From a virus, in IMG/VR virus record IMGVR_UViG_3300042691_037119, positions 1-50,240 of that record: DNA of 50,240 bases; one strand, given 5' to 3'. A program made the position numbers and the translations under genes. Below, one piece after another: positions 10,001 through 31,225 of the stretch (its first letter is position 1; each line of letters begins with the position of its first letter). A model generated the notes under the pieces. It had not been told where the DNA came from and made no database searches. It saw only the letters and a list, made by a program, of their open reading frames with translations.

Positions 10001-13000
10001 CGTGGGGAAGGCGCACGCGGGCGCGGAACTGATCGCGCCCTATCGAGAATTCTTCCGTGCCTACAACAAGCTACTGGCGGAGTCCGACGAGCCCACCAAG
10101 AAGTATCCGTGGGTTCGCGAATTCATGAGTGGATTCGTAGAACTGCGCCGCCAGTTCTCCCACTCGAATGTCACCGATGCGAAGCGGATTCCGATTCCCG
10201 CCGAGATGATCCGTGGTTACAAGGGTGCGGTGGAGTATCTTTCCTCCGCAGAACCTGCGATGCCCGCGCCCGCGAAGGCCGCTCCGAAGGCCACGGCCCC
10301 GACGATGCCCGCGCCCGCGAAGGCCGCTCCGAAGGCCACGGCCCCGACGATGCCCGCGCCCGCGAAGGCCGCTCCGAAGGCCACGGCCCCGACGATTCTG
10401 GGCGCAAAGAAGGGATCGGGTCGCACGTATAACGTGGTCGAATCTGCGTCTGGGAAGCAGCTCATTCGAGGCGTCACCGTAGATCAGGCTCGCAAGCTCG
10501 CAAGCGCGCTTGATCCCATCGCGCCGGACCTCATTGCGTTTGCAGAAACGCGGACTGGATGGGGCGCGGGCGGACGAGACGCATCTCGGGTCATGCAGGC
10601 CATTAGGGCCTTCCGTGACGACGTAATCTCCGGCAAGAGCCCGACCACGGACGCAATCGTTCAGGCGATGCAGCCTGTCCCCGAAACGGCCCCGCAGCCG
10701 ACCAGCGCGGCTCCCTCCGCTGAATTCGCGTCCATTCAGGCCGACATCCGCAGGCGCAACGCAGCCGTCGCGGATGATGCGCGTCTCCAGTCTGCCCTTG
10801 CGGAATGGCGCTCGCGTCGCAGCAAGGCACAGGGGAGGAAACTGGACGGGCGGAAGCGCCCCCCCGCGAAGCTCGACGATTCGATTCTGCGGCCCATGGC
10901 GGAGTCCTACAACGCAGCGGCACCCGACGTGCGCCCGCTCATTCTCCGCGAGGCCGCCGATGTGGGGATCCGCACCGGAGACGTTCTCGAATTGGCGGAG
11001 ATCATCGCAGCCGAAGAGCCGAAGACCGCGCCCACGAAGGCCGCCAAGCCGAAGAAGCCGAAGGCCACGCTATCCGAGAACATCGTCGCGCATCCCAAGC
11101 CCAAGGTCGCCATCAACACGCAGGATGCGTGGAAGACGCCGTATGACGAATTCTACCAGCGTGAGGTCGCGCGAGGGGTAGATAGCCGCACCATCCACGA
11201 TGCGTGGCAGTCCGCAGTCTGGGATGCCTTCGACCGTGGCGAAACGATCTCTCCGGCGGTCGCAGCCGGCACCCACGTCAACCCCATCCGGCGGGCTGCT
11301 GGCGTCCCCGACTATGTGGGAATGAGCGATGCCGACAAGAAGGCCCTTGTCGATGCGGCGCGTAGGTCGTCGAAGCCCAACGTCACTGGTGTCTTCCAGC
11401 CCGCGAAGGAAGATGCCCGTGCGCCCGGCGGGCAGGGGAGCTTCGGGTTCCAGCCCGCGAAGGGCACGTATCAGGCCGTCACCGAAAGCCGCACCCGACG
11501 CACCGAAATCGATTCGTGGATCAAGGAGAACGTCGAGCCTCAGGGGATCGAGAACAAGCACGTCACCTTCCGCCGCGAGCAGGCGGCGTGGTCCATCGGA
11601 GAATACGAGGGGGACGATCAGAACCCCTTCAAGATCAATTCTGCGATCAACTCCATTCGCAGCTATGCGGGCGAGGTGGCAAAGACCATCGCTCCGCACG
11701 ATTCCCAGATCCGGGAAGAGACGAAAGAAAGCATCTCCTCGGATATCGCCGATGCCTTCGACGTGGACATGACCGAGGTCCCCGCTGACGTTTACCATGG
11801 GTGGGGCGACGGCTATCTGGTCGCATACGCCGACTCGGAGCGCGGGCTGATTCACCTCGAGAACAAGACGGGACAGTTCACCGTTAAGGCGGTGCGTCCC
11901 GACGACCTTGGCCCCGAGCATGTGGTGTCTGCATCCAATACGCTCGGGGGCTCGATCGATCCCGACCGGCTCTTCGACGGGGACTCGGAAGAAGGACTCG
12001 CGTCCCGCGTCGTTGGCGAGGACCTGTCGGTGGACTACTTCCGCGCCATGAGTGAGTCGCCCGCGATCTTGGGCGTCATCATGCGGGAAACTGGAGCGCA
12101 GAATGCCTACTTCCAGCCGAAGCAGCGCCCGCAGCTTCACGATCGCAAGGAAGAGGGCGGGATCGAGAACGCGGAGAAGCGGACGCCGAAGCCGGACACC
12201 GTGACCATGGCGGGCGCGGCGCGCTTCGCCGCCGATGCTCCGGCGGTAGAGAAGATGCTGCTCGACGCGGCGGATTCGGGGCGAGTTCTGACGGACGAAG
12301 AGAACGTGGCCGCCGGGCTTCTCATGTCCGAGGTCTCGCGCGATGCGGCCTACGCGCCCATCGGCCCCGAGAAGATGGAGAAGACCGCGCGGGCGGTGAC
12401 GTTGCAGCGCGCCTACGCCAAGGTCGGCTCCGAGGCCGGGCGGTCTCTCCGCTCGCGCAAGCTCGTCTATGCGAGCGAGGAAGACGCGCTGCGGGCGACG
12501 ATCCTCGAATCGCTCTACGACATGACGAAGGCACAGGCCGCGCGCTTCGACAAGGCGGACGCCGCCGGGAAGAAGGAGATCATCGCGGAGGTCGCGACGA
12601 ATGCGGACGCGATCCTCGCCGCCGCCGCGAAGAGCGGAATCGACGTGCTCGACGCGATGACGGGCAACGCCGCGAGCACGGAAGTGGACGCGTCTATCGA
12701 CGGTCTGATCGAAGCGGGCGACGCTGCTATCCGCCGGTTCAACACGTCGTCGCGCGAGCATTTCAGCGCCCGGTCGGAATGGGGCAAGACCAAGGATCGG
12801 CTCAAGAAGCTGCGGGCGGAGATGAAGTCGCGCGCGGGCGAGAAGAAGCTGCCCAAGTCGTCGTGGTGGCGCTCCGAGCTGTCGTGGATCAAGGGCCAGC
12901 TCGCGAAGTTCCAGCCCGCGCTCGCGGAAGGGCTCGACGCGCGCTTCGTTCCCGCGCTCAAGGCGCTCGCCGATCCGAGCGGGCTCAACCCCGTCACGGT

Positions 13001-20455: not shown

Positions 20456-20679
20456 TTGCTCGCCTCCTTCCTGATGCGCCGGATCGCGCGCTCCGCAGCG
20501 CGCTTCGAGGTGTAGGCGTGGGCGCATCCTCGGCGCGAGCTCTCGTGGATGCGGTTACCGTCGCGCCAGACAGCCCACTCCCAGTTGCACCCGCTCCCGC
20601 TGACCATCGCGCCCAGATCGTCATCCTGCGCGCGGTAGTAGCGTTCCGCCGTCAGCCGCCAGTTCAGGGCGAGGCTCAT
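20452..20679 (-). CDS. Small protein between RecT- and RecE-like genes
   Basis: 75 aa from ATG 20679, which overlaps the RecT stop; an upstream ATG at 20703 is less likely. The protein has a strand-turn pattern (WEWAVWRDGNRIHESS), one SSRRGCAHAYTSK segment and a basic helix at the end (RAAERAIRRIRKEASK), like small phage proteins that show a DGxxxxxGxxxSxxxA pattern. Function unknown. Confidence 0.6.
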   Translation of the reverse strand: MSLALNWRLTAERYYRAQDDDLGAMVSGSGCNWEWAVWRDGNRIHESSRRGCAHAYTSKRAAERAIRRIRKEASK

Positions 20680-21836
20680 GCGGCACCTCCCCGCATGGCA
20701 CATTCGACGACCGGTCCGAAGTCCACCTTGGTCTCGGGGTGGCGGACCCAGCCGTCAGCGTTCATCCCGTAGAAGGCGTTCGCCAGAGCTTCGCGCCCTT
20801 CGAGGTTGTCGCTCGCCATGCCGAACCGGCGCGCCTGCGCATCCGACCACGGCTCGAAGACGGGCGAAAACTCCATGTCGCCAGCCTTCTGGCCGTCGTG
20901 CCACTCGCCCCACACGGCATCGAGCGCCGCCTTGACCGCGCCCGGCTCGAGGTCCGTGTGTTCGCCCTCCGCGTTGATGAAGACGGCGGCGACCATCCAC
21001 CGCGTCCACGGCTCCCACTGGTCGGGGTGCGGGCACGGATCGCAGAGGCGCACGCGGAGCCGCGCCATGATCTCGGCGCGAGTCGGAAGGTTCGGGTCCA
21101 CGGTCGGGGGCGGAGCGGGGTCCGCGTAGTCCGCCTCGTGGTCGGCCACGCCCGGCGGAAGCGGCGCGATCCCGGCGGCGGGGATCGTCGGCGCGGCGGT
21201 CGGGCGGATTCGCGCCATGGGTCCGGGGCCAGCGGGCGCGGGCTTCGCCACGACCTCCGCTTCCACGTCGAGAGGAGTGTCCATCTCCTCCCGAGCGTAG
21301 AAGCCCGCGAGGATGTCCGCGAAGCAGTCGCGAAGGGCGAACGCACGGGCGCGCGCCTTCAGCATCCGCTTCGGGAACTGCTTCCACGGCCCGGACTTGC
21401 CCCAGATCCCGGCGAGCTTGGCGTCCTCGACGGAGAACTCTCCCTGCACGATCGGGCAGCCGACGCGGGCGACCTCGCAGATCGCCGTCATCGCGTCGCC
21501 GGCACCTTCGACATACTCGCGGAATCGGGTCCCATCCCACTGCGGCGAGCGCTGGCAAAGCGCCAGCATCGTGTCGCCCCACAGCGTCGGGCGACCGTTC
21601 ACGACATAGATCGCCTGAATCGCGCTCATGATGTCGAGCCCGAGCTTCGCGCCGTGCCACGCGGCCACGGTCAGCTTTTCGGGCGTGTTGAGCGTGCTCG
21701 GGGCCATGCCGCTCTTGTGGATCGTCGCGAGCATCCGGCCCATGTCGGTCAGGATCAGCTCGTTCCCCTGCCGCATCAGCGCGGGGGGGTCGGTGTAGAT
21801 GGTCGCGATCTCGCGCGACTCGTTCGGGGTGGTCAT
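20676..21836 (-). CDS. recT: RecT-family single-strand annealing protein
   Basis: 386 aa. AAWHGAKLGLDIMSAIQAIYVVNGRPTLWGD, the conserved basic-acidic EFSVEDAKLAGIWGKSGPWKQF and PKRMLKARARAFALRDCFADILAGFY are hallmarks of RecT-like annealases; the core spans about residues 20-215. The C-terminal 170 residues are Pro-rich and then form a Trp-rich domain that I do not recognise. The protein should coat and anneal single-stranded DNA with the exonuclease downstream and the SSB upstream. The start carries the leader motif: AAAGGACCCGACCAA directly precedes ATG. Confidence 0.9.
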   Translation of the reverse strand: MTTPNESREIATIYTDPPALMRQGNELILTDMGRMLATIHKSGMAPSTLNTPEKLTVAAWHGAKLGLDIMSAIQAIYVVNGRPTLWGDTMLALCQRSPQWDGTRFREYVEGAGDAMTAICEVARVGCPIVQGEFSVEDAKLAGIWGKSGPWKQFPKRMLKARARAFALRDCFADILAGFYAREEMDTPLDVEAEVVAKPAPAGPGPMARIRPTAAPTIPAAGIAPLPPGVADHEADYADPAPPPTVDPNLPTRAEIMARLRVRLCDPCPHPDQWEPWTRWMVAAVFINAEGEHTDLEPGAVKAALDAVWGEWHDGQKAGDMEFSPVFEPWSDAQARRFGMASDNLEGREALANAFYGMNADGWVRHPETKVDFGPVVECAMRGGAA

Positions 21837-21868
21837 TTGGTCGGGTCCTTTGCTTGTGTGTTGCTACA
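21837..21868 (-). promoter_or_regulatory. Leader motif before recT
   Basis: On the minus strand AAAGGACCCGACCAA runs into the recT ATG. AAAGG supplies the ribosome-binding site and ACCCGACC (21839-21846) the constant spacer. This leader lacks an obvious hairpin and is only 32 nt long. Confidence 0.72.
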
Positions 21869-22255
21869 TCAGAACGGGAGCGAGTCGTCCATCTTCTTCG
21901 TCGCGGCGGCGGTCGGCGCGGTCGTCGAGGCCGGCATCGGGGGCTCCTTATGCGGCGGCACGATGCCGTTGATGTTCACGGCCTCGAGGTCGGTGTAGGA
22001 CTTCCCGTTGTACTCCCGCCCCTTGAAGCGCACGTTCACGATGACAGCGCTGCCGACGAGGTTCGCGCAGCTCCCACGCTTTCCTTCCTTGCCGAGATAG
22101 TGCGTCGCCTGAACGAGCGCGCTCCCCTCGACGTTCTTCCCCTGCTCGGGGTCCCACGTGCCCTGCGGGATGCGAATATTGAGCTTCTGAATCTGCCCCT
22201 GCTGGCCGACGGTCTCGATGCTCTCGAGCACGCCCGTAAACGCTCCGAAGTTCAT
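21869..22255 (-). CDS. ssb: Single-stranded DNA-binding protein
   Basis: 128 aa from ATG 22255, overlapping the previous stop. An N-terminal beta-rich region (MNFGAFTGVLESIETVG, then strands with NLVGSAVIVNVRFKGREYNGKSY) fits an OB fold. It ends in a disordered Pro/Thr/Ala linker and the acidic tip KKMDDSLPF, the classic SSB C-terminal tail (acidic residues then P-F) that recruits host partners. The neighbours are RecT- and RecE-like genes. Confidence 0.8.
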   Translation of the reverse strand: MNFGAFTGVLESIETVGQQGQIQKLNIRIPQGTWDPEQGKNVEGSALVQATHYLGKEGKRGSCANLVGSAVIVNVRFKGREYNGKSYTDLEAVNINGIVPPHKEPPMPASTTAPTAAATKKMDDSLPF

Positions 22256-22659
22256 CCCTTGTTCTCCTTGTTCGTCTTCATGATCGTGGCTCCCCGCCCG
22301 CTGCCCAAAAGGACGGCGTGTCCGGCGTAGGAGATGTTGCGAATCGCGTCGTGGGCGTAGGTGGTCTTACAGCCGGTCTCGTCCATGATCCGCTGCGCGA
22401 GGTATTCGACCGTAACGGGCTCGTCGGTCTCGCCGATGATGCGCCGCGCCGCCTCGAATGCTGCGGTGTACTTCGTGCCGCGAGGAGCGGGGGAGGTGCT
22501 CGGCGGCTTCATGAGATCGTAGATGGTCATCCGCGCCAGCTCGATGTCTTCTTGGTATCCGGCGATGTCGCGCCGGGCAGACTCGATGCGCTTCATACTG
22601 CGATCGATGTGCTGCTCCATGGCTTGGATGATGTATTCGGGGCTGGACGTGGTTTCCAT
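22252..22659 (-). CDS. Coiled-coil protein with possible winged-helix C-terminus
   Basis: 135 aa. Residues 10-50 form a heptad helix containing ESARRDIAGYQEDIELAR. Residues about 65-130 (AAFEAARRIIGETDEPVTVEYLAQRIMDETG...YAHDAIRNIS) resemble a winged-helix DNA-binding fold. The helix is clearly related to the 53-aa protein encoded just upstream (22662-22823). Possibly a small regulator. No named family. Confidence 0.6.
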   Translation of the reverse strand: METTSSPEYIIQAMEQHIDRSMKRIESARRDIAGYQEDIELARMTIYDLMKPPSTSPAPRGTKYTAAFEAARRIIGETDEPVTVEYLAQRIMDETGCKTTYAHDAIRNISYAGHAVLLGSGRGATIMKTNKENKG

Positions 22660-22661
22660 GC

Positions 22662-22823
22662 TCAGGCGGTCTCCATCCGCTTCTCGATTTCGTCGATCTG
22701 CTGCTGCGCTCGCGCGATGTCGTCCTTGTACTGCGCCACGTCGCGCCGGGCAGCCGCGAGCCGCATCTTGTCGTGTTCGAGTCGCTTCTTGAAGTAGCGA
22801 AGGCGTTCCTCGTCGCTGTCCAT
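22662..22823 (-). CDS. 53-aa coiled-coil protein, paralogue of neighbour
   Basis: ATG 22823 has GGAGGG 5 nt upstream; the stop is 2 nt before the next ATG. The product is a single long helix, including AAARRDVAQYKDDIARAQ, which aligns with the N-terminal helix of the next protein (ESARRDIAGYQEDIELAR). The pair suggests a partial tandem duplication. It may heterodimerise with its neighbour. Confidence 0.6.
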   Translation of the reverse strand: MDSDEERLRYFKKRLEHDKMRLAAARRDVAQYKDDIARAQQQIDEIEKRMETA

Positions 22824-22825
22824 GG

Positions 22826-23011
22826 CTACCCTCCCCAGACCGCGAGCGCGGCCAGCATCGCGAGGAAGACGGCGATCCCGGCCAGCGTGCGCCAGTCGGC
22901 GCGGTCGCGGGGAACCATGTAGCTCTCGTACTGCCCGCGAGCGTTGATGCGCTCGACGAGGATCCAGCGCGGCGCGGCGTGGAACTTGGTCGTCGGGATC
23001 ATGCGTCCCAT
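22826..23011 (-). CDS. Small C-terminally anchored membrane protein
   Basis: 61 aa from ATG 23011, with AAGGAG upstream. The first 40 residues are polar, with a PRWILVERINARGQYESY strand region. Residues about 43-59 form one hydrophobic helix (LAGIAVFLAMLAALAVW). It would be a tail-anchored inner-membrane protein with its N-terminus in the cytoplasm. Superinfection or membrane roles are possible but unsupported. Confidence 0.6.
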   Translation of the reverse strand: MGRMIPTTKFHAAPRWILVERINARGQYESYMVPRDRADWRTLAGIAVFLAMLAALAVWGG

Positions 23012-23026
23012 GGTCGTGTCTCCTTG
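23012..23026 (-). promoter_or_regulatory. Variant leader motif before 23011 gene
   Basis: GGAGACACGACC directly precedes ATG on the minus strand: the same element as elsewhere with one change (ACACGACC for ACCCGACC). It keeps the ribosome-binding purines immediately 5-prime of the constant spacer. Confidence 0.5.
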
Positions 23027-23362
23027 TTTCGATCTAGTGGACGAGGCCAGCGGCATCCGCGCCCCCGAGTGGACGGACCGATTTCCCGATCCGCCCGCCC
23101 GGAGGGACGGGCCAGCCCGCCCGTCGGTCTCCGGTGCCGCCACAGTTCCCAGCCGTGGCGGCGCGCAAACCCGCAATTTCGCCCCTTCGAGCATTCGATA
23201 GATGCGTCGGGCTCTATGGCCCTCGGCTTGGGGTGAACAACCCCACCGCGATCCATGGTGACAGGGGCCAGCGTCGCCCGAGTAACCCGAGGACACGCGC
23301 TGTCACGCGCGCCAGCCTCACCATGGATCGCGGAAGGGGCCGGGACTCGCGCCCCGGCATTG
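23027..23362. promoter_or_regulatory. Non-coding gap with three perfect inverted repeats
   Basis: No convincing gene lies in these 336 nt between the repressor gene and the small membrane protein. GCCGCCAC (23136-23143) pairs with GTGGCGGC (23155-23162). TGGGGT (23229-23234) pairs with ACCCCA (23240-23245). CCGCGATCCATGGTGA (23246-23261) pairs over all 16 bases with its complement at 23318-23333 across a 56-nt loop. The last two sit side by side. Candidate structured RNA, attenuator, operator or recombination site. Confidence 0.6.
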
Positions 23363-23617
23363 TCAGCCCTTCAGAATATCCTCGATCTTCACTCCCAGAG
23401 CCTCGGCCAGCCGCGCCGCCGTGTCCGGGTTTACCCTATACCCATCCCGAATCCGGTTCAGCGTGCGCGACAGGGAGGTTTCGTCCGAGCCTAGTGCGCC
23501 AGTGTGCTTGTTCCGCATGCGCTTCGCGAGCGCCCGGTTGGTCAGCCCGAGCCGCGTGATGATCGCGTCCACGCGCCGGGCCGATACCGCGACGATCCCG
23601 CGAGTCTTGTTCGGCAT
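23363..23617 (-). CDS. XRE-family transcriptional regulator
   Basis: 84 aa from ATG 23617, with AAAGGAAG 3 nt upstream. The helix-turn-helix covers about residues 14-70: AIITRLGLTNRALAKRMR, a loop, then SLSRTLNRIRDGYRVNPDT and AARLAEALGVKIEDIL. This is the Cro/C1-type fold with an unusually long insertion (NKHTGALGSDE) before the recognition helix. It has no cleavable C-terminal domain, so it is more like Cro or a small early repressor. It may bind the boxes at 24535-24654 or the hairpins at 23246-23333. Confidence 0.82.
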   Translation of the reverse strand: MPNKTRGIVAVSARRVDAIITRLGLTNRALAKRMRNKHTGALGSDETSLSRTLNRIRDGYRVNPDTAARLAEALGVKIEDILKG

Positions 23618-23661
23618 CTGCTTCCTTTCGCGCGTTTCCCGCCGCGCCCCGGCTTCCGTTC

Positions 23662-23892
23662 CTACGCGGTCGCGAGCGAGCGATAAGCCGCCTGACTGGT
23701 GTGATTGCGCTCCGGATCGGTTGCGAGGTCGTAGGCGGCTTCGTCTGCGAGCGCTGCGTTGCACGCCTGATTGTAGGCGATCAGCGCGGAGTCGTAGGCG
23801 TCGCGCGCTGCCTTCGTGGCCAGCCACGCATCGTGGCGAACGTTGGCCGACTGAGCCTTGTTCGCGGCGAGAGTCGAAAGAAGATCGTTCAT
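23662..23892 (-). CDS. Small helical protein, 76 aa
   Basis: Ala/Asp/Asn-rich helical protein whose ATG is preceded by GAAAGACCCGACCA. It contains MNDLLSTLAANKAQSANVRH and two further helices. It is probably the first gene transcribed from the TTGACA/TACAAA promoter at 23940-23969. Function unknown. Confidence 0.6.
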   Translation of the reverse strand: MNDLLSTLAANKAQSANVRHDAWLATKAARDAYDSALIAYNQACNAALADEAAYDLATDPERNHTSQAAYRSLATA

Positions 23893-23933
23893 TGGTCGGG
23901 TCTTTCCGGGCGGCCTTGGCTCGCCCTGTCATG
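23893..23933 (-). promoter_or_regulatory. Leader with hairpin and ACCCGACC motif
   Basis: On the minus strand a GGGCG...CGCCC hairpin with inner GCC/GGC pairing and one bulge (23908-23926) begins about 7 nt after the predicted transcript start. GAAAGACCCGACCA then leads straight into ATG. The motif itself lies at 23894-23901. Confidence 0.65.
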
Positions 23934-23939
23934 CTGTTA

Positions 23940-23969
23940 TTTGTAGTGCATTCTTCTGGCGCGTGTCAA
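23940..23969 (-). promoter_or_regulatory. Minus-strand sigma70-type promoter
   Basis: TTGACA (23969-23964) and TACAAA (23945-23940) with an 18-nt spacer, inside the most AT-rich stretch of the neighbourhood. The predicted start near 23933 would transcribe the 76-aa gene, the XRE regulator and possibly the recombination genes downstream. Confidence 0.62.
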
Positions 23970-24007
23970 CCGGTTTTTTTTGCCCGGTCGTCGATTGTTT
24001 CGCTTGC

Positions 24008-24193
24008 TCAGACGGCGAGAAGCGCCAGCGCGGCGTGGTGCTTGTCGCGGCGGGCCGCTTCGAGCGAAGCGCGGGCCGCGAGATACTCCCGCGAGTAGTT
24101 CCCATCTTCGTCGTGCATCTTCCCCTCGCGCCGAATCCGGGCGATCTCGAACGCCCAGAAATCGACTTCGCGCGCGGCGTCATAGTAGCTCAT
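24008..24193 (-). CDS. Small hypothetical protein, 61 aa
   Basis: ATG 24193 follows AAGGACCCGACCA. The protein begins MSYYDAAREVDFWAFEIARI and is helical, with basic and Ala-rich helices separated by HDEDGNYSREY. No family is recognised. Confidence 0.6.
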   Translation of the reverse strand: MSYYDAAREVDFWAFEIARIRREGKMHDEDGNYSREYLAARASLEAARRDKHHAALALLAV

Positions 24194-24275
24194 TGGTCGG
24201 GTCCTTGTGGTCTGGTCTCGTCGTCGGGCGACGGCGAAGGGGCCGGGTCGCGGCCCTATCGTCGGCGTCAGGCGG
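24194..24275 (-). promoter_or_regulatory. Leader hairpin (type 3) and ACCCGACC motif
   Basis: GGGCCG (24240-24245) pairs with CGGCCC (24251-24256) and GACG (24230-24233) with CGTC (24260-24263). The motif follows at 24195-24202, touching the start codon region. The stretch beginning GCCTGACGCCGACG is closely shared with the leader at 30712-30814, about 6.5 kb away. Confidence 0.68.
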
Positions 24276-24464
24276 TCAGACCGCGAATCCGGCGCGGTGC
24301 CAACGGCGGGTGCGGTCGTCCTCGTCGTCGCGTCCGTCCGCATCCGCGAGCGCGAGAAGGGAGCGATACTCGTTGAGCACGTCGTCCGGGGGCAGCGTGT
24401 CGCGATACTGGCGATTCTGGCGCTCAAGTTCGATCAGGCGGCGGCGGGCGGCGGAAGGCGTCAT
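24276..24464 (-). CDS. Small hypothetical protein, 62 aa
   Basis: First gene of the minus-strand operon at this end. ATG 24464 is preceded by GAGACCCGACCA. Helical and highly charged (SAARRRLIELERQNRQYRDT, then DADGRDDEDDRTRR). No family is recognised; the spread of charge suggests nucleic-acid or protein binding. Confidence 0.58.
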   Translation of the reverse strand: MTPSAARRRLIELERQNRQYRDTLPPDDVLNEYRSLLALADADGRDDEDDRTRRWHRAGFAV

Positions 24465-24520
24465 TGGTCGGGTCTCGTTTCCTTGGTCGGGTCTCGGGGT
24501 CGTCGCCCCGTGCCAAAGTA
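24465..24520 (-). promoter_or_regulatory. Operon-head leader: -10 box, 5-prime hairpin, double motif
   Basis: On the minus strand TACTTT (24520-24515), preceded by TGCA, may be a -10 box. The predicted start then falls at a CGGGG/CCCCG hairpin (24495-24510). ACCCGACC follows twice (24485-24492 and 24466-24473). The -35 region is poor. The same order (promoter, end hairpin, two motifs) is seen at 31178-31260. Confidence 0.55.
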
Positions 24521-24534
24521 TGCAGCACGCACCA

Positions 24535-24654
24535 TGCCAACACTTGCCAACACTTGTTGCCATGATCGGCGATATTCGTGCCAGGCCAACGGCGTTAAAA
24601 AATGGGTAACGGGTAGCCGCTTGCACGTCGCCAGTGGGTAGCGGATTACCCATT
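24535..24654. promoter_or_regulatory. Divergent control region with direct and inverted boxes
   Basis: TGCCAACACT occurs twice in tandem (24535-24554) near the minus-strand start. AATGGGTAA (24601-24609) and TTACCCATT (24646-24654) form a 9-bp inverted repeat, with two more GGGTA boxes between at 24611-24615 and 24636-24640. Placed between divergent operons, these look like operators for one or two of the phage HTH proteins (23363-23617 and 24720-24938). Binding is inferred. Confidence 0.58.
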
Positions 24655-24683
24655 GGGCCGGATTCGCATCCAAAAATCGTGGC

Positions 24684-24711
24684 TTGACTTTCGGAAAAGA
24701 ACCCTTATGCT
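24684..24711 (+). promoter_or_regulatory. Plus-strand promoter, probably leaderless transcript
   Basis: TTGACT (24684-24689), a 16-nt spacer and TATGCT (24706-24711). The expected start at about 24718 is only two bases before the ATG at 24720, and there is no Shine-Dalgarno sequence, so the message would be essentially leaderless. It drives the replication operon. Confidence 0.65.
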
Positions 24712-24719
24712 GTCCACCC

Positions 24720-24938
24720 ATGGAAACGAACCCGAACCCCAAATACCTCACCACGTCCGAAGTCGCGCGCCTCCTGCGCGTCACCCCAACCATGGTCCGC
24801 ATCTGGGTCAGGTGCGGCATGCTCAACAAGATCGTGCGCGGCGCGTTCTTGGAGTCCGACGTGCTCGCCTTCATCGCCAAGCACCGCGCCGATTCCGAGT
24901 CCAAGGCCAAGCCCGGCCCCAAGCCGAGGGACGCATGA
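24720..24938 (+). CDS. Helix-turn-helix protein (MerR/excisionase-like)
   Basis: 72 aa. KYLTTSEVARLLRVTPTMVRIWVRCGML is a helix_turn_helix_17/MerR-type unit (TxxEVAxLLxVxxxxVRxWVxxG), followed by a DVLAFIAKH segment that closes the winged fold. The C-terminus is a Lys/Pro/Ala tail. In temperate phages this fold serves as excisionase or regulator; no integrase is seen, so a regulator of the divergent region upstream is more likely. The stop overlaps the methyltransferase ATG. Confidence 0.82.
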   Translation: METNPNPKYLTTSEVARLLRVTPTMVRIWVRCGMLNKIVRGAFLESDVLAFIAKHRADSESKAKPGPKPRDA

Positions 24939-26050
24939 TCCACCACGGCGAATGCCTCGAGACCATGCGGGGGATGGCGGACGCGAGCGTGGATGCGGTC
25001 GTGACGGACCCCCCGTTCTTCAACGTGGTCTCCGCCGATTGGGATCGCCAGTGGGCGTCGCGCGCGAAGTTCCTCGCGTGGTTCGGCGAACTGGTGACGG
25101 AATGGCATCGGCTGATCCGACCGAACGGGAGCCTCTACGTCTTCGCCTACCCGCGCATGGCGGCGGCGGTCGAGACCGTCATCGGCGAGAAGTTCAACGT
25201 GCTCAATCAGATCGTCTGGCGCAAGACCGGGCATGCAGGCAAGCGAAACAAGACGACGAACCAGCGTGCATTCTGGCCGGCGACCGAGCGCATCGTGTTC
25301 GCGGAACACTTCGGCGGCGACAACATGGCGCGCGGGCTCTCGACCTACGCCGCGAAGTGCGACGAGGCTCGCGCGTTCGTTTTCGAGCCGTTGCGCGCCT
25401 ACCTCGTCGGGGAGATGGAGCGGGCCGGATGGGACAAGGGCAAGGTCAACGCCGCTTGGCGAGCGGAGCGCGGGGGCAACGGCGGCATGGCCGGCCACTG
25501 GTTCAGCCGCTCGCAGTGGGAACTGCCGACGGCGAAGAATTACGAATGGCTTCGCGGGCTCTTCAACGGTGACGGGGCCGACCACCTTCGGCGGGAGTAC
25601 GAGGACCTTCGGCGGGAGTACGAGGACCTTCGGCGGGAGTACGAGGACCTTCGGCGGGAGTACGAATCGCTCCGCAGGCCGTTCGCCGTCTCTCGCGCGG
25701 TTCAGTGGGAAGACGTTTGGGAATTCGCGCCGGTCCAACGCTATCCCGGCAAGCACACCTGCGAGAAGCCCGACGCGCTCATGCGGCACATCGTCGCGTC
25801 GTCCACTCGACCGGGCGCGCTGATACTCGACCCCTTCGCCGGATCGGGCGCGACCGGAGTCGCCGCGCTGTCCCTCGGGCGCCGCTTCGTCGGAATCGAG
25901 AAGGACGCACACTGGCACGGCGTCGCGTCCGAACGATGCGCCGCCGTCGAGCCCGAACCGGCGAACCATTCGGAACCGCCGAAGAGTTCGCGCCGCCCCC
26001 GAGCGCGCATCGCCGCGCCCGACATGTTCGCGACCGGAGGACTGGAATGA
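24935..26050 (+). CDS. DNA adenine methyltransferase with heptad repeat insert
   Basis: 371 aa. TDPPFF (24-29) is the catalytic motif and DPFAGSGATG near residue 299 the SAM site, in beta order like the 15433-16413 enzyme. Residues 218-245 are four copies of LRREYED (last one LRREYES), encoded by 21-bp repeats, forming a charged helix between the methylase core halves; I recall similar variable repeats in other phage methyltransferases. The last 40 residues are Pro/Arg-rich. Likely protects phage DNA against host restriction; target unknown. Coupled by ATGA overlap to the genes on both sides. Confidence 0.87.
   Translation: MIHHGECLETMRGMADASVDAVVTDPPFFNVVSADWDRQWASRAKFLAWFGELVTEWHRLIRPNGSLYVFAYPRMAAAVETVIGEKFNVLNQIVWRKTGHAGKRNKTTNQRAFWPATERIVFAEHFGGDNMARGLSTYAAKCDEARAFVFEPLRAYLVGEMERAGWDKGKVNAAWRAERGGNGGMAGHWFSRSQWELPTAKNYEWLRGLFNGDGADHLRREYEDLRREYEDLRREYEDLRREYESLRRPFAVSRAVQWEDVWEFAPVQRYPGKHTCEKPDALMRHIVASSTRPGALILDPFAGSGATGVAALSLGRRFVGIEKDAHWHGVASERCAAVEPEPANHSEPPKSSRRPRARIAAPDMFATGGLE
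25586..25669 (+). repeat. Four 21-bp tandem repeats in methyltransferase gene
   Basis: Three identical copies and a fourth with changes in the last two codons. Being a multiple of three, loss or gain of units keeps the frame. It encodes heptads of a charged helix. Confidence 0.95.
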
Positions 26051-27504
26051 GCGTCAAAGACGTGCTCGACGCGGCGCATACGGTGAACGCGCCGACCAAG
26101 CCGCCCACGACCACCAATCTGGAAGTCGAGCGCGGAACCATCGGCGGACTCCTCGCCGCGCCCGAATACTGGCACGCGGTCCGCCGCGCCCTCGGCCCCG
26201 CCGTGTCCGACAACCATTCCCACGCGATGGTTGACGGTCGCCCGCGCAAGCCTGCAACGCGAACCCCGATCTTCTCCTCCCCCGCCAATCAGACGATCTT
26301 CGAGGCGCTGCGCGACCTCGCCGACGCGGGCCATTCGCCCGACGAGCTGACCCTTTCCGCCGAACTCGAACGGCTCGGACGCCTCGAAGCTGCCGGCGGA
26401 TCGCTCTACATCCTGTCCCTGCCCGAGGAAATCCTCGTTCCGCGCTACGTCGTCGAATACGCGGCGATCCTCGCGCGGCTCTGGCACAAGCGCGAAACCG
26501 CGCGGCTCATGACTGCCGCCGTCCAGGCCGTATTCGCATCCGACGATCCCTCGCGCGCGCTGCGCGTCCATCTCGACGGGCTTTCCTCCCTGACCATCGG
26601 CGACGAGCCGCCCCAAACGATCGGGCTGGCCGTCGCCGCTCGCCGCGAGGAGCTGCGCGCCGGTCCCGCCCCCGCGATCCAGACCGGCTGGCCTAGCATC
26701 GACAAGGCGACGGGGGGAATCCGCCCCGGCCAGATTTGGACGTTCGGCGCGCGCTCCGGCGTCGGCAAGTCCATCGCCCTCCTTCACGTCGCGTTGCGGC
26801 TCGCGACCTCGGGCTATCGCGGGCTCTACATGTCGCTGGAAATGTCGCCCGGAGAGCTGGCCGACCGCGCAATCGCGAACGTGGCTGGAGCACCCCTCGA
26901 CCGGCTGCGCGATCCTCGCGGCGACGTGGACACGCTCGAACGCATCGACCGCGCGGCGAACATCCTCGCCCGAACCCCGCTCGCCCTCATGAGCGCCGAA
27001 TCCTCCATCGAAGCCCTCGTTGCGCGCGTTCGCGACGAGCATCGCCGCGCCCCCCTCGCTTTCGTCGTCGTCGATTACGTTCAGCTTCTGACCTGCGAGG
27101 CTCGCACCGCGAACCGCGTTGATGCGCTGTCCAACGTCACGCGCGGCCTGAAGATTCTGGCGATGACGACCGGGCTGCCGATCCTCACTGCCGCGCAGCT
27201 CAACCGCGAGGGAGTCAAGGCTGGCGCACCCCCCGACCTCACCAATTTCCGCGAGTCCGGCTCTATCGAGCAGGATACGGACGTGGCGATCTTCCTCCAC
27301 GAACCCCCCCTGGAAGGTGCCGCTCCGGCCGATCCCGCGACCATCGGAATGCGCGTCGCCAAGAGCCGCAGCGGCCACGCTACGGGCTGGCTTTCCTACT
27401 GGCGGCATGGCTCCCTCTCGCGCCTCAATGAAGCGGTCAACCCGACCGACGGCGGGCCTGTCCCGTTCGTCGCCGATCCCCCCAAGGCCACCAAGGCGCG
27501 CTAA
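26047..27504 (+). CDS. Replicative DNA helicase, DnaB type
   Basis: 485 aa. The N-terminal domain (about 20-160) with LEVERGTIGGLLAAPEYW matches the DnaB N-terminal fold. The RecA-like core has GARSGVGKS (234-242, Walker A with K241), YMSLEMS (E265), VVVDYVQLL (Walker B, D343), AAQLNREG and FRESGSIEQDTDVAIFL. It should unwind DNA at the phage fork, loaded by the initiator encoded next. A non-standard insert, about residues 52-78 (SDNHSHAMVDGRPRKPATR), sits in the N-terminal domain. The start overlaps the methyltransferase stop. Confidence 0.92.
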   Translation: MSVKDVLDAAHTVNAPTKPPTTTNLEVERGTIGGLLAAPEYWHAVRRALGPAVSDNHSHAMVDGRPRKPATRTPIFSSPANQTIFEALRDLADAGHSPDELTLSAELERLGRLEAAGGSLYILSLPEEILVPRYVVEYAAILARLWHKRETARLMTAAVQAVFASDDPSRALRVHLDGLSSLTIGDEPPQTIGLAVAARREELRAGPAPAIQTGWPSIDKATGGIRPGQIWTFGARSGVGKSIALLHVALRLATSGYRGLYMSLEMSPGELADRAIANVAGAPLDRLRDPRGDVDTLERIDRAANILARTPLALMSAESSIEALVARVRDEHRRAPLAFVVVDYVQLLTCEARTANRVDALSNVTRGLKILAMTTGLPILTAAQLNREGVKAGAPPDLTNFRESGSIEQDTDVAIFLHEPPLEGAAPADPATIGMRVAKSRSGHATGWLSYWRHGSLSRLNEAVNPTDGGPVPFVADPPKATKAR

Positions 27505-27605
27505 AAGCATTGCCGAATCTGTGTCCTTGGCGCATACAGTGTTCCGCACACTATCCGACACGGTGTCACACACCGTGCGGCAAAATCAGCCCCGGAGAGA
27601 AGAAC
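27505..27605. promoter_or_regulatory. Gap with palindromic CACGGTG repeats before initiator
   Basis: CACGGTGT (27559-27566) and ACACCGTG (27570-27577) form a near-perfect palindrome; AGTGT and ACACT flank a second small hairpin just upstream. CACGGTG recurs twice inside the initiator gene (about 28090-28135). A weak TTGCCG/CATACA promoter with a 17-nt spacer (27510-27538) may precede the gene. Candidate binding sites for the initiator. Confidence 0.42.
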
Positions 27606-28424
27606 ATGGCCGCCAAGTACCGCAAGGTTGACCCCCGCATCTGGTCCGACGAGCGCTTCGCGGCCTTGTCCACCAACGGAAAGCTCGCCGTGCTCTACGT
27701 CCTCACCTGCCCCGAGATGAACCGGATCGGGCTCTTCCGTCTGTCCGTCGCGACGGTCGCCGAAGCCATCTCCTCGGGCGATTCCAACTCGAAAAATTCT
27801 CTTTCTAGCGCAAAGCTGCGCAAGATTCGCGTCGAAATCGAACGCGCTTTTTTCGAGTTGGGCTGGGAGCTTGACACCAAGCTCCGCCTGATCTATCTGC
27901 CCAACTGGTGGCGCTACAACCTTCCCGATAACCCCGACGCCATGAAGGGAGCGCTTCGCGACCTCGAAGACATCCCCCGCTGCGCGCTGCGGACCGCCTT
28001 CGAGACCAATACCAAGCACCTCGGGAAGGGGTCCAAGGCCGTTCTTCTCGCGGTAACCGGACGCTGCGAATCGGACTGTCATGCTCCGGAACACGGTGTG
28101 GGCAGTGGTGGGGGAGGAAGTGTCTCGCACGGTGAGGCACACAAGGGGGGACATCAGAAGCAGGAGCAGAAGCAGGAGCAGGATGGGGCACTAGCCCCAT
28201 ACTGCGAAGAGGCGCGCGCGGGGGGTCAGCCCCGCTTCGCCGAAGTCAAAGAGGAATGCAAAGTCAAAGAGGATGACAAGGCGGCCAAGGCCTGGCCGCC
28301 GGTTCCGCCCCCCGTCGAGGAATTCGTCCCTCGCCTCGACCCGAACTCGCCCATCGCGAAAGCAATGCGAAATCCCGAATCCAGCGAAGCTATCGCGCTT
28401 CGGGCCGCTGGCGTCATCCCCTAG
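27606..28424 (+). CDS. Phage replication initiator / helicase loader
   Basis: 272 aa with GGAGAG 8 nt before the ATG. YRKVDPRIWSDERFAALSTNGKLAVLYVLTCPEMNRIGLFRLS is the conserved N-terminal winged-helix start of phage replication proteins of the replisome-organiser type. LIYLPNWWRYNLPDNPDAMKG closes that domain at about residue 115. Residues about 155-195 are a His/Gly/Gln low-complexity linker and the C-terminal 60 residues are acidic, then Pro-rich. It probably binds the origin and loads the upstream DnaB-like helicase. As in lambda O, the linker-coding DNA might itself hold origin repeats. Confidence 0.8.
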   Translation: MAAKYRKVDPRIWSDERFAALSTNGKLAVLYVLTCPEMNRIGLFRLSVATVAEAISSGDSNSKNSLSSAKLRKIRVEIERAFFELGWELDTKLRLIYLPNWWRYNLPDNPDAMKGALRDLEDIPRCALRTAFETNTKHLGKGSKAVLLAVTGRCESDCHAPEHGVGSGGGGSVSHGEAHKGGHQKQEQKQEQDGALAPYCEEARAGGQPRFAEVKEECKVKEDDKAAKAWPPVPPPVEEFVPRLDPNSPIAKAMRNPESSEAIALRAAGVIP

Positions 28425-28556
28425 CAGCCCCGGGAAGGGGCCATATCCTCGCGCTGCGGGACTTTCGCCCCCATACTCGCGTCAATAGGCACCCCCCTAC
28501 TAAAAAACGCCGCTACGGTCAAATGCCGCCCAAGGACTTGACATGGCGGAAAAGAG
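28425..28556 (+). terminator. GC hairpin after the replication operon
   Basis: GCCCC-GGGAA-GGGGC begins 2 nt after the initiator stop. There is no T-run directly after it, so it may be an attenuator or a 3-prime stabiliser. The rest of this stretch holds no gene that I can support; it includes TAAAAAA near 28500 and an isolated TTGACA at 28538-28543. Confidence 0.4.
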
Positions 28557-28593
28557 AACGCCCCGGACAGCCGTTTCAGGCCGCCGGGGCGTT
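28557..28593 (-). terminator. Terminator between convergent operons
   Basis: AACGCCCCGG (28557-28566) pairs perfectly with CCGGGGCGTT (28584-28593). On the minus strand it lies 23 nt after the last stop and is followed by CTCTTTTCC, a usable T-rich tract; on the plus strand the tract is weaker. It would end the minus-strand small-gene operon. Confidence 0.7.
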
Positions 28594-28615
28594 GTTCAGT
28601 CCGTCGTGAGGCGGT

Positions 28616-28897
28616 TCAGACTCCCAGCCGCGAGCGAATCGCGGTCTCGTGGCCGGGAAGCGCCAGCCGCCAGCCGTTCGGACTCGTCTCGAACGCACGG
28701 CCATCGCCGTCGATTCCGACGCATCGCGTGTAGCCGCGAAGGCCGGGGACGACTCCCAGCCTCGCGTAGCGGACGAGATACACATCTTCGCGGGTGTGCG
28801 AAGGGACGCCGGGGAAGGAGGCGGCGACCTTGCGGGTTCCGTTCTCGAAGAGCGTGCCGTCTTCGGCGACGCCGATGCAGTTTGCGGGGGAAGTCAT
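28616..28897 (-). CDS. Hypothetical protein, repeated beta-unit type, 93 aa
   Basis: ATG 28897 has CGGAG 9 nt upstream and the ACCCGACC motif further up. Two similar halves can be read: CIGVAEDGTLFENGTRKVAASFPGVP and CVGIDGDGRAFETSPNGWRLALPGH, each C-x-G-x-x-x-D-G-x-x-F-E. That implies an internal duplication of a small beta unit. No family is recognised. Last gene of the operon. Confidence 0.6.
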   Translation of the reverse strand: MTSPANCIGVAEDGTLFENGTRKVAASFPGVPSHTREDVYLVRYARLGVVPGLRGYTRCVGIDGDGRAFETSPNGWRLALPGHETAIRSRLGV

Positions 28898-28971
28898 GGC
28901 TTTGCTCCGTTGGTCGGGTCGGGGGTGATCCGGAAGCCTCTGGGCCGCCGGGGCGCTTCGGTCGGGTTGTC
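28898..28971 (-). promoter_or_regulatory. Leader with two ACCCGACC motifs and a hairpin
   Basis: Motifs at 28960-28967 and 28912-28919. GAAGC (28933-28937) can pair with GCTTC (28955-28959). Unlike most copies, a separate CGGAG ribosome-binding site lies between the last motif and ATG. Confidence 0.58.
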
Positions 28972-29211
28972 CTACGCCATGAGTAGGACGGCGTAGCTGA
29001 TCGTCTTCAATGCATCGCGCATTTCGGCCTCGCTCATCGTGTCGATGGTGGCGCTGATGCGGATGCGCGTCTCACGGCGGCGCTTCACACGATCCGCCGG
29101 GGTGTCATCGTCGAGGCACATCGCGCGACATTCCGCGAGCTGCTCGATGATCTCGTCGGCGGTGGTGAACTCGGGGAGCTGTTCGGCGCTGCTGGTGATC
29201 GTGGCGTTCAT
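28972..29211 (-). CDS. Small hypothetical helical protein, 79 aa
   Basis: ATG 29211 with ACGGAG about 10 nt upstream and the motif above it. Helical: FTTADEIIEQLAECRAMCLD and a basic RVKRRRETRIRISATIDT segment. No family is recognised. Confidence 0.58.
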   Translation of the reverse strand: MNATITSSAEQLPEFTTADEIIEQLAECRAMCLDDDTPADRVKRRRETRIRISATIDTMSEAEMRDALKTISYAVLLMA

Positions 29212-29304
29212 GGTTCGTTCTCCGTCGGTCGGGTCTCATTCGGCGGCGGGGCCGCTCCGAAGGCCCCTCACTCTCGCGAGGGGCTATCGGAGGGGTCTCG
29301 CACC
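29212..29304 (-). promoter_or_regulatory. Leader hairpin (type 2), nested stems
   Basis: Inner stem GCCCCTC (29263-29269) with GAGGGGC (29278-29284); outer stem CTCCGA (29255-29260) with TCGGAG (29287-29292), 13 bp in all. The motif is at 29227-29234. The CCGATAGCC and GGCCTTCGG blocks are shared with the 30345-30441 leader. Confidence 0.66.
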
Positions 29305-29532
29305 CTACGCGCGGGGGAACGGGTTGAACGTGCCGGTTTCGGCCCTACGAAGGACCGCACGGAGCACGCCGGATTCGGCCACTCCGCCGCGCGCCGATTC
29401 GATCTTGCCCGTGATGCGTCCGTTGACGACGTGCGCGAGCTCAAGGCTCTGGTAGCGAGTCGGCCCCGCGTTGAGATAGCGGGCGTGCTGGATGTACCGG
29501 GCGCTTGCGAGGAGGATGCGGAACTTGCTCAT
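29305..29532 (-). CDS. Small hypothetical protein, 75 aa
   Basis: ATG 29532 preceded by GGAGACCCGACCA. Begins MSKFRILLASARYIQHARYL, followed by strand-like LELAHVVNGRITGKI and a basic helix. No family is recognised. Confidence 0.58.
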   Translation of the reverse strand: MSKFRILLASARYIQHARYLNAGPTRYQSLELAHVVNGRITGKIESARGGVAESGVLRAVLRRAETGTFNPFPRA

Positions 29533-29614
29533 TGGTCGGGTCTCCGGTCGGTTTGGATTTGGTCTCGTCAGCGGGCGCCTTACGCCCGGACGCCCCGAAG
29601 GGCGTTTCGACCTG
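29533..29614 (-). promoter_or_regulatory. Leader hairpin pair (type 1, copy A)
   Basis: Stem 1 ACGCCC-TTCG-GGGCGT on the minus strand (29590-29605) carries the very stable UUCG tetraloop. Stem 2 CGGGCG/CGCCCG lies at 29572-29588. Then come CTGACGAGACCAAA and the motif (29534-29541), ending at ATG. Compare copy B at 29897-29978. Confidence 0.75.
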
Positions 29615-29896
29615 CTACGCCTCGCGACGGACGCTCGCCCCGGCGATGAGCACGTCGTTGCAGTCGGCGATGTCCCGCTCGGCTTCCGCGATGTCGGCCC
29701 GAAGCCCCTCAATCGCGGTGTAGCACGCATCCTGCTCGGCGTTGTCGTCCTGGTCGATTCCTGCGGCGACGCGCTGATTCGCGCGCTCAAGGCGCGCCGT
29801 CCACTTCGCGAGCAGGTCGCTCGCGTCGCAGTGGCGCTCCATCGCGTCGGCCTTGAGCCCGTAGGCATCATCGCGAGTCATCTGGAAAGACATCAT
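29615..29896 (-). CDS. Hypothetical coiled-coil protein, 93 aa
   Basis: Two ATG codons in a row (29896 and 29893) follow AAAGAGACCCGACC. Long helices: MERHCDASDLLAKWTARLER and IEGLRADIAEAERDIADCND. The second resembles in style the ARRDIAGYQEDI helices of the 22.3-22.8 kb pair. Function unknown. Confidence 0.58.
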   Translation of the reverse strand: MMSFQMTRDDAYGLKADAMERHCDASDLLAKWTARLERANQRVAAGIDQDDNAEQDACYTAIEGLRADIAEAERDIADCNDVLIAGASVRREA

Positions 29897-29978
29897 GGGT
29901 CGGGTCTCTTTCGCGTTGGTTTGGTCTCGTCAGGCGGCGCTTGACGCCGCGACGCCCCGAAGGGCGTTTCGACCTGGG
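29897..29978 (-). promoter_or_regulatory. Leader hairpin pair (type 1, copy B)
   Basis: The UUCG hairpin (29952-29967) is identical to copy A. Stem 2 is GCGGCG/CGCCGC (29934-29950): relative to copy A the two outer pairs have swapped C-G to G-C and G-C to C-G, so pairing is kept while sequence changes. The motif is at 29898-29905. Confidence 0.75.
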
Positions 29979-30344
29979 CTAGCCCTCGAAGTAGCCATTC
30001 TCGCGGATGGCCGCCATGCTGTTCTCGCCCTCGGGGTGCGGGGTGGGGCGGCAGTCCGCACACTTGCAGGGCTTGGGCGCGACGCACGTACGCCCGTGGT
30101 GATACCCGAGGAGGATCGCCTCCTCGTGCTCCATCGTCAGCGTCGCGGGGAGCATCGGGGGAGCGGGACGACCGGCGGCGCGAGCGAGGCCGGGCAGATA
30201 CGCGCGGGGATGCGCAAGCACCTTGGCCACGTCGTAGCCATGGACGCGGCTCGCGTGTCCGGCGATGTCGCCGATGATCGCTCCGGCCATGTAGGCGTCG
30301 GCGGTCTCGGGGGCAGTCATGATTTCGAGGGCGGGGGTCGGCAT
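29979..30344 (-). CDS. Hypothetical protein with Cys motif, 121 aa
   Basis: ATG 30344 directly follows AAAGAGACCCGACC. It contains EHEEAILLGYHHGRTC and then CKCADC, a possible metal-binding knuckle. The N-terminal half is Ala-rich and helical. No family is recognised. Confidence 0.58.
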   Translation of the reverse strand: MPTPALEIMTAPETADAYMAGAIIGDIAGHASRVHGYDVAKVLAHPRAYLPGLARAAGRPAPPMLPATLTMEHEEAILLGYHHGRTCVAPKPCKCADCRPTPHPEGENSMAAIRENGYFEG

Positions 30345-30441
30345 GGTCGGGTCTCTTTCGCGTTGGATTCGGTCGTTGAGCGGCTAGGCCGCCCCGAAGG
30401 CCCCCCCGACCCGTGAAGGCCGGAGAGGCTATCGGGGGGGT
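30345..30441 (-). promoter_or_regulatory. Leader hairpin (type 2, second copy)
   Basis: CCCCCCCGA (30401-30409) pairs with TCGGGGGGG (30432-30440), 9 bp. The motif is at 30345-30352, touching the ATG. Flanking GATAGCC and CCTTCGGGGCGGCC blocks are shared with the leader at 29212-29304. Confidence 0.68.
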
Positions 30442-30711
30442 CTAGCGGGCGTTGATCGAGGAATTCCAGCCGTCCACCTCCGCGAACCAGTGATCCCGTT
30501 CGGCGGGAGTGGACGCGGCGAGCGAGCGGCGCAGGCTGTCTTCCATGTCCGAAGGGACCGCCATCTTGTGCGGGGGAACGATTCCGGGAGGCGTCCGGCG
30601 AATCGCCTCCAGCGTTGCGAGCCAGCGACGATGGTAGCTCGCCATGTAGTGCGCGATGGTCGCTTCCTCAGCGGGCGTGAACTTGATCGCGGCGAGATAG
30701 GTGGAGATCAT
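30442..30711 (-). CDS. Hypothetical protein, 89 aa
   Basis: ATG 30711 follows GAAAGACCCGACCA. Helical: FTPAEEATIAHYMASYHRRW, then a PPGIVPPHKMAVP loop and two more helices. No family is recognised. Confidence 0.58.
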   Translation of the reverse strand: MISTYLAAIKFTPAEEATIAHYMASYHRRWLATLEAIRRTPPGIVPPHKMAVPSDMEDSLRRSLAASTPAERDHWFAEVDGWNSSINAR

Positions 30712-30814
30712 TGGTCGGGTCTTTCGTTCGGTTGATTTCGAGCCGGATTCGGCCCGATTGCGTCGCCAGGCGACGGCGGAGAGGCCGGATTCGCACCCGG
30801 CCCTACCGTCGGCG
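30712..30814 (-). promoter_or_regulatory. Leader hairpin (type 3, second copy)
   Basis: GGCCGG (30783-30788) pairs with CCGGCC (30797-30802), inside GACGG (30772-30776) and CCGTC (30806-30810). The motif is at 30713-30720. The sequence and fold match the leader at 24194-24275, with different loop sequences. Confidence 0.7.
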
Positions 30815-31177
30815 TCAGGCGTTGACGTTGCGCGCGCCGTGCTTGTTCTCGATTTCCTGCATCGTGAGACTCCGGCGGCCGCGAGGGCGGAACGTCTGCG
30901 GGGCGGTCTCGGGCCGCCAGTACCAGACGCTTTCGGCCCCGCGCTCGCGATCCTTGCTCCTCTGGCTCGCGAAGCGGAACCCGAGCGCCTTGAGGGCGGT
31001 CCGGGCCGCTTCGCCCGGCTTGGTCGCGAAGTAGGTATAGATCCAGTACCCGACCAGCCTCGTTTCGGAAGCTCCGCAGGCCGCGAGAGTCGGGGCGGAA
31101 TCGGCGGCGAAGCGCTCCGCGTCCTCGTACAGCGACAGGGACGGATCGGCGATGGAGACGGGATGGGTCGCGTTCAT
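30815..31177 (-). CDS. Hypothetical protein, first gene of small-gene operon, 120 aa
   Basis: ATG 31177 follows AAAAGGAACCCGACC. Central LVGYWIYTYFATKPGEAARTALKALGFRFAS, a Gly/Trp strand (ESVWYWRPE) and a basic tail. The GFRF...W.WRP pattern resembles small phage proteins with a WxPxG-type strand, but no family is recognised. Confidence 0.62.
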   Translation of the reverse strand: MNATHPVSIADPSLSLYEDAERFAADSAPTLAACGASETRLVGYWIYTYFATKPGEAARTALKALGFRFASQRSKDRERGAESVWYWRPETAPQTFRPRGRRSLTMQEIENKHGARNVNA

Positions 31178-31225
31178 GGTCGGGTTCCTTTTGGTCGGGT
31201 CTTGATTCGGGCCTTTCCCGGCCCA
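31178..31225 (-). promoter_or_regulatory. Operon-head leader: 5-prime hairpin and double motif
   Basis: GGGCC (31209-31213) pairs with GGCCC (31220-31224); the predicted transcript starts right at this hairpin. ACCCGACC then occurs at 31193-31200 and 31178-31185, the last touching ATG. Same layout as 24465-24520. Confidence 0.7.

Follow-up and report, generated by a model that had tools for sequence, protein, structure and literature searches.

A candidate start-associated sequence before twelve minus-strand genes of a 50 kb phage genome, with predicted ribozymes and a second structured RNA in the gene leaders

The short motif ACCCGACC, in one case as a variant, was found at or close before the starts of twelve minus-strand genes in a viral sequence record (50,240 bases, 66.6% GC), which was analysed at full length and is referred to as the window. 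We give an even chance to the reading that this motif is a phage-specific mRNA start-associated sequence (SAS) on early messages that are cleaved at gene junctions. In this reading, a minus-strand set of RecT and small ORFs would be transcribed early and as operons, and the translation-initiation region of each of its genes would end in ACCCGACC as a constant 3' part. The message would be cut by type II hammerhead ribozymes at two operon-internal junctions and, through a hairpin element termed R1, at four others. Each piece would carry a GC-rich hairpin and then an unstructured A/C-rich leader with Shine-Dalgarno (SD) sequence, motif and AUG, and the motif would be recognised by the initiating ribosome and a phage or host RNA-binding factor. 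The parts of this proposal read directly from the sequence are the motif, its position and strand restriction, the hammerhead cores and stems, the covariation of R1, and the mutual exclusivity of hammerheads and R1.

Both contig ends carry the same 31 bp direct repeat (1-31 and 50210-50240), and a tail-type ORF from 49370 runs across the end join into 46-1707; the genome is thus very probably complete and circularly mapping. A single ORF of 2583 aa occupies 7080-14831 in the late gene block. Since the genome is very probably whole, the genome-wide count on both strands that had been proposed in the initial annotation can be regarded as done, and it bore out the suspected enrichment at starts. 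ACCCGACC occurs 20 times, compared to 3.2 ± 1.7 times in dinucleotide shuffles (shuffle maximum 8), with 16 copies on the minus strand. Thirteen of the 20 copies are followed within 35 nt by a minus-strand start (binomial P ~1e-17, the 35-nt upstream zones of the 58 called starts making up 2.1% of strand-positions). The plus-strand starts, which had been described as lacking the motif from those inspected, lack it throughout (0 of 29). Starts were called with a codon model blind to the motif; for genes 24464 and 31177 the ATG nearest the motif was then chosen manually, and 9 of 20 copies remain near starts when these two leaders are left out. ACCCGACC was also the most frequent 8-mer upstream of starts.

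All twelve gene starts to which the motif had been assigned were verified, one of them (gene 23011) through the variant ACACGACC, and the second copies reported for three leaders were located as well (Table 1), the one at 28960-28967 about 60 nt upstream. In total, the leaders contain 14 exact copies and one variant, all on the minus strand. The motif genes, RecT and small ORFs, all start with ATG (12/12), and no structural-family match was found among them. ACCCGACC ends 0-2 nt before the ATG at 21836, 23892, 24193, 24464, 29532, 29896, 30344, 30711 and 31177. Four copies are located 14-20 nt from the start and do not adjoin it. SD-like purines precede the motif except at 28897 and 29211, where ACCCGACC and the ATG are 14-15 nt apart and a distinct GGAG lies between them. 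The earlier description of a motif filling the space between ribosome-binding site and start therefore applies to ten leaders and not to these two.

Table 1. Positions of motif copies, promoters and RNA elements in the window and of one hammerhead array in another phage contig
Feature	Position	Strand	Remarks
Two ACCCGACC copies, 31193-31200 and 31178-31185	31178..31200	-	before gene 31177-30815
Sigma-70-like promoter, TTGACG-17-TATTCT	31260-31232		upstream of gene 31177-30815 motifs
ACCCGACC	30713..30720	-	1 nt before ATG, gene 30711
ACCCGACC	30345..30352	-	abuts ATG, gene 30344
ACCCGACC	29898..29905	-	1 nt before ATG, gene 29896
ACCCGACC	29534..29541	-	1 nt before ATG, gene 29532
ACCCGACC	29227..29234	-	15 nt before ATG, gene 29211; separate GGAG downstream of motif
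Two ACCCGACC copies, 28960-28967 and 28912-28919	28912..28967	-	leader of gene 28897
Tandem GAGACCCGACCAA, motifs 24485-24492 and 24466-24473	24466..24492	-	before gene 24464
ACCCGACC	24195..24202	-	1 nt before ATG, gene 24193
ACCCGACC	23894..23901	-	1 nt before ATG, gene 23892
Promoter-like TTGACA...TACAAA upstream of gene 23892 motif		-	read by eye
Variant ACACGACC	23012..23019	-	abuts ATG, gene 23011
ACCCGACC	21839..21846	-	2 nt before ATG, RecT-like annealing-protein gene 20676-21836
Predicted type II hammerhead ribozyme	29923..29974	-	leader 29896; predicted cut between 29951 and 29950
Predicted type II hammerhead ribozyme	29561..29612	-	leader 29532; predicted cut between 29589 and 29588
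R1 copy A	24227..24269	-	leader 24193
R1 copy B	30769..30816	-	leader 30711; starts within stop codon of gene 30815-31177
R1 copy C	30387..30442	-	leader 30344
R1 copy D	29250..29297	-	leader 29211
G002 hammerhead array (L197)	G002:29500-49450	-	many leaders end in constant sequence

Across 13 aligned leader copies all eight motif positions are invariant and most flanking positions vary. A G precedes the motif in 12/13 copies and an A is found in 11/13 at each of the next two positions; the extended form is RGACCCGACCAA. This flanking pattern is also present at distal copies without a nearby ATG. The leaders are about 66-85% alike where alignable (29896/29532, 85%; 24193/30711, 78%; 30344/29211, 70%). 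Since leaders are homologous in pairs and the proteins encoded downstream are without clear homology, the alignments indicate that intergenic cassettes were copied between genes. The motif could then be nothing but the shared 3' end of neutrally duplicated cassettes between small genes. We hold this to be distinctly unlikely: at 15-30% leader divergence, chance survival of the same eight letters in all copies is not expected, the 8-mer shows no change in 13 leader copies whose remainder has diverged to that degree or is unalignable, and it is also found in leaders that are otherwise unlike (21836, 23892, 28897).

A further possibility is an ordinary spacer: an A/C-rich segment without U, placed between SD and AUG, would hold open an otherwise GC-rich leader. 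Replacing the motif by random GC-rich 8-mers made the start region less accessible on average in the predictions, and motif composition, as distinct from order, may thus serve openness. Permutation of the motif's own letters left predicted accessibility about unchanged. Lack of structure can therefore not account for the exact letter order, which, in these folding models, must serve something else. The position of the motif upstream of a separate GGAG in leaders 28897 and 29211 also argues against a mere spacer, and the plus-strand genes manage without the motif in the same GC-rich genome. We consider the spacer very unlikely as a full explanation.

Two leaders, those of genes 29896 and 29532, are predicted to carry self-cutting type II hammerheads. 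In an Rfam scan, Hammerhead_II was assigned to two minus-strand stretches, 29557-29612 and 29915-29974, both full-length matches to RF02276 (E = 1e-4 each, for this genome). The scores of 25.9 and 25.8 bits are below the Rfam gathering score of 37, as are those of many relatives found by pattern search. Both copies have the core CUGANGA, GAAA and a UH cleavage site, closed stems I and III, an open stem II, and perfect stems II/III/I of 4/6/7 pairs. By eye, the layout is GGUC-GAA-ACGCCC(UUCG)GGGCGU-C, the cut, stem I, CUGACGA and GACC, and the two copies show compensatory changes in stem I (GCGGCG/CGCCGC and CGGGCG/CGCCCG). No clear pairing of loop I with the 3' tail (AAACC/AAAUCC) was seen by eye; this pseudoknot is present in most, not all, type II hammerheads. 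A compound DNA pattern of the hammerhead matched 111 viral contigs. In nearly all of 80 inspected pattern contigs the hammerhead closely precedes a start codon, usually with a Shine-Dalgarno sequence between. Of the 50 records searched with RF02276, 43 gave a match; 14 control genomes gave none at this threshold.

In both hammerhead leaders, pairing of CGACC of the motif with GGUCG of the ribozyme yields a competing RNAfold structure favoured over the ribozyme fold by 1.6-2.5 kcal/mol. Regulation might accordingly run through the hammerhead, with ribozyme folding and exposure of the start being mutually exclusive. This would concern 2 of the 12 leaders, and the energies omit ribozyme tertiary contacts; we regard it as extremely unlikely. 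As most motif leaders are without a hammerhead, motif and ribozyme are separable.

The second element, R1, is a conserved structured RNA present in four other leaders, as supported by covariation. It follows the pattern GACNCC...CGRUAG-hairpin-CUYCG...GCC and folds into an outer stem with two fixed mismatches, a UA/CU 2x2 loop and an inner stem. Among the four copies, 95% of cells pair vs 74% in shuffles, 7 of 16 pairs are changed on both sides vs 4.7 in shuffles, and slid versions of the alignment score worse. The whole leader 29211 folds with z = -5.5. An R1 covariance model recovered the four copies at E below 1e-10 and gave no other credible match in 917 kb; a feature-based descriptor found exactly the same four in the window. 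R1 was absent from 84 other loci searched, and its C/D-type pattern matched no other viral contig. No Rfam family gave a credible match to this conserved element in the leaders of either region. HDV-like and twister ribozymes were compared with R1 by hand, and neither fitted.

Hammerheads and R1 are never present in the same leader. One or the other is found in 6 of 7 presumed operon-internal leaders (the set being 30711, 30344, 29896, 29532, 29211, 28897 and 24193) and in 0 of 5 others (Fisher P = 0.015), and these operon assignments and the test are partly by-eye, because a promoter scan returned only two sigma-70-like promoters in the region and backs one promoter used for the division. In phage T7, the early genes are separated by RNase III sites, intergenic hairpins with an internal loop. 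By analogy, R1 could work like these; R1 differs from them in its conserved 2x2 UA/CU loop and fixed mismatches.

Both functions suggested in the initial annotation, a special initiation signal and a binding site for a regulator, are possible. RNA elements (two hammerheads, four R1), which had escaped the initial annotation, form the framework of the leaders. Most likely, then, the motif acts in the mRNA and is the constant 3' end that the leaders share after processing. Binding by a phage regulator of transcription at the DNA level, with the motif as a stoperator-like or activating site near starts by happenstance, would fit the tandem copies in three leaders and the variable distance to the start (0-20 nt, in one case ~60 nt). 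An XRE-type HTH gene (23363-23617), a possible regulator, is located among the motif genes, its own leader being without the motif. Such a site is nevertheless unlikely, as the eight letters are non-palindromic, always on the coding strand and mostly 0-2 nt from the ATG, and occur in operon-internal leaders downstream of RNA elements, while the divergent plus-strand operon is without them. For the start-associated sequence that we prefer, the twelve motif starts and six structured leaders suggest that one long message is divided into single-gene pieces with a common start signal.

Relatives of the window were searched with capsid-type, terminase and portal proteins, and no close one was found in viral contigs; RecT and DnaB searches yielded distant matches only. 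Annotated phages gave no match, either by megablast with 20 kb or by blastn with the leaders. The exact sequence GAGACCCGACCAATG had 30 matches in viral contigs, mostly SD plus start in unrelated phages, and was discounted as being at about chance level. Tandem motifs in viral contigs were mostly coding repeats, with no leader resembling those of this phage. The combination of hammerhead, CCCGACC and ATG gave one true case in viral contigs, an unrelated GC-rich 26.5 kb phage fragment with GAAAGGAACCCCGACCATG (L181, G001:395-475, minus strand), in which a type II hammerhead is followed by GAAAGGAACCCCGACCATGAACGCC, resembling the 31177 leader of the window. The same search in cellular genomes gave 67 matches, none with a hammerhead.

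In G002, a phage contig of 49.5 kb unrelated to the window, a stem-and-core descriptor located 14 type II hammerheads situated between successive genes; Rfam matched 11 of these (E up to 0.001). Its private sequence AAGGAGCGA occurs in nine copies, all at starts within the hammerhead array (9/9) and none elsewhere in the genome. In L152 (AGGAGATAGTA) and L091 (CATTGGGGAGAGATACCA), own leader ends are likewise repeated behind hammerheads. Ribozymes placed gene by gene and followed by a constant start sequence that is specific to the phage are thus seen more than once. Several hammerhead leaders with own recurring leader ends were noted in phage contigs L152, L091, L151 and L099. In L094, L100, L109, L114, L122, L128, L134, L142, L143 and L148, a hammerhead precedes a long conserved leader (TTTGGCGAGTGTCCGACAAC...), and the gene downstream varies from contig to contig. 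A far-reaching combined claim would be that R1 is a new self-cleaving or processing RNA replacing hammerheads at operon-internal junctions and that private start sequences with gene-by-gene RNA cutting form one expression system recurring in unrelated phages; we take it as a speculative and quite improbable one.

Start-associated sequences were reported in 2011 (PMC3203893), and their function was still called unclear in 2020 in the available text of PMC7302621. Their occurrence downstream of ribozymes provides a testable idea, namely that SAS may mark translation starts on single-gene message pieces, and G002, with 14 hammerheads and one constant start sequence, is a compact phage for testing it. 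A link between SAS and ribozymes is not stated in the accessible parts of PMC3203893, PMC7302621, PMC4351075 and PMC3088659 or in further literature, a body from which most subscription papers fell outside the scope.

Cluster K mycobacteriophages (PMC3203893) and cluster EF Microbacterium phages (PMC7302621) are described, in the text available, as having a private start sequence at about 10-19 starts. Near-uniform orientation, ATG starts, non-structural genes, position at the ribosome-binding site and further conserved elements upstream of many copies are shared with the motif described here. The analogy with cluster K drawn in the initial annotation thus holds for architecture and does not extend to sequence, as matches to the cluster K and EF consensus sequences in the window are at chance level only. 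By its sequence features, the motif is a start-associated sequence in kind, outside the cluster K/EF family by sequence. The SAS of these clusters contains the Shine-Dalgarno sequence (GGGATAGGAGCCC, GGGAAAGGACCCC; PMC3203893, PMC7302621), whereas here the motif adjoins it. For the ESAS of cluster K, little support for RNA pairing was found by the authors, according to the available text (PMC3203893); the upstream elements here, in contrast, are covarying RNA structures and predicted hammerheads. Cluster A stoperators (asymmetric) and cluster O 17 bp repeats (palindromic) resemble the motif in the many copies of a short sequence per phage and, as far as described in the accessible text, differ from it in not being tied to start codons (PMC4351075). 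Clustered hammerheads between prophage genes, including type II, were described in PMC3088659, where cutting of phage transcripts into single-gene or operon-length mRNAs was proposed and tandem arrangements were shown to cleave. The present genome is like those prophages, in the parts of that paper available, in having type II hammerheads between consecutive genes. It differs from them in its constant start sequence downstream of the ribozymes, of which the same parts make no mention, and in that most of its leaders use R1 or no element.
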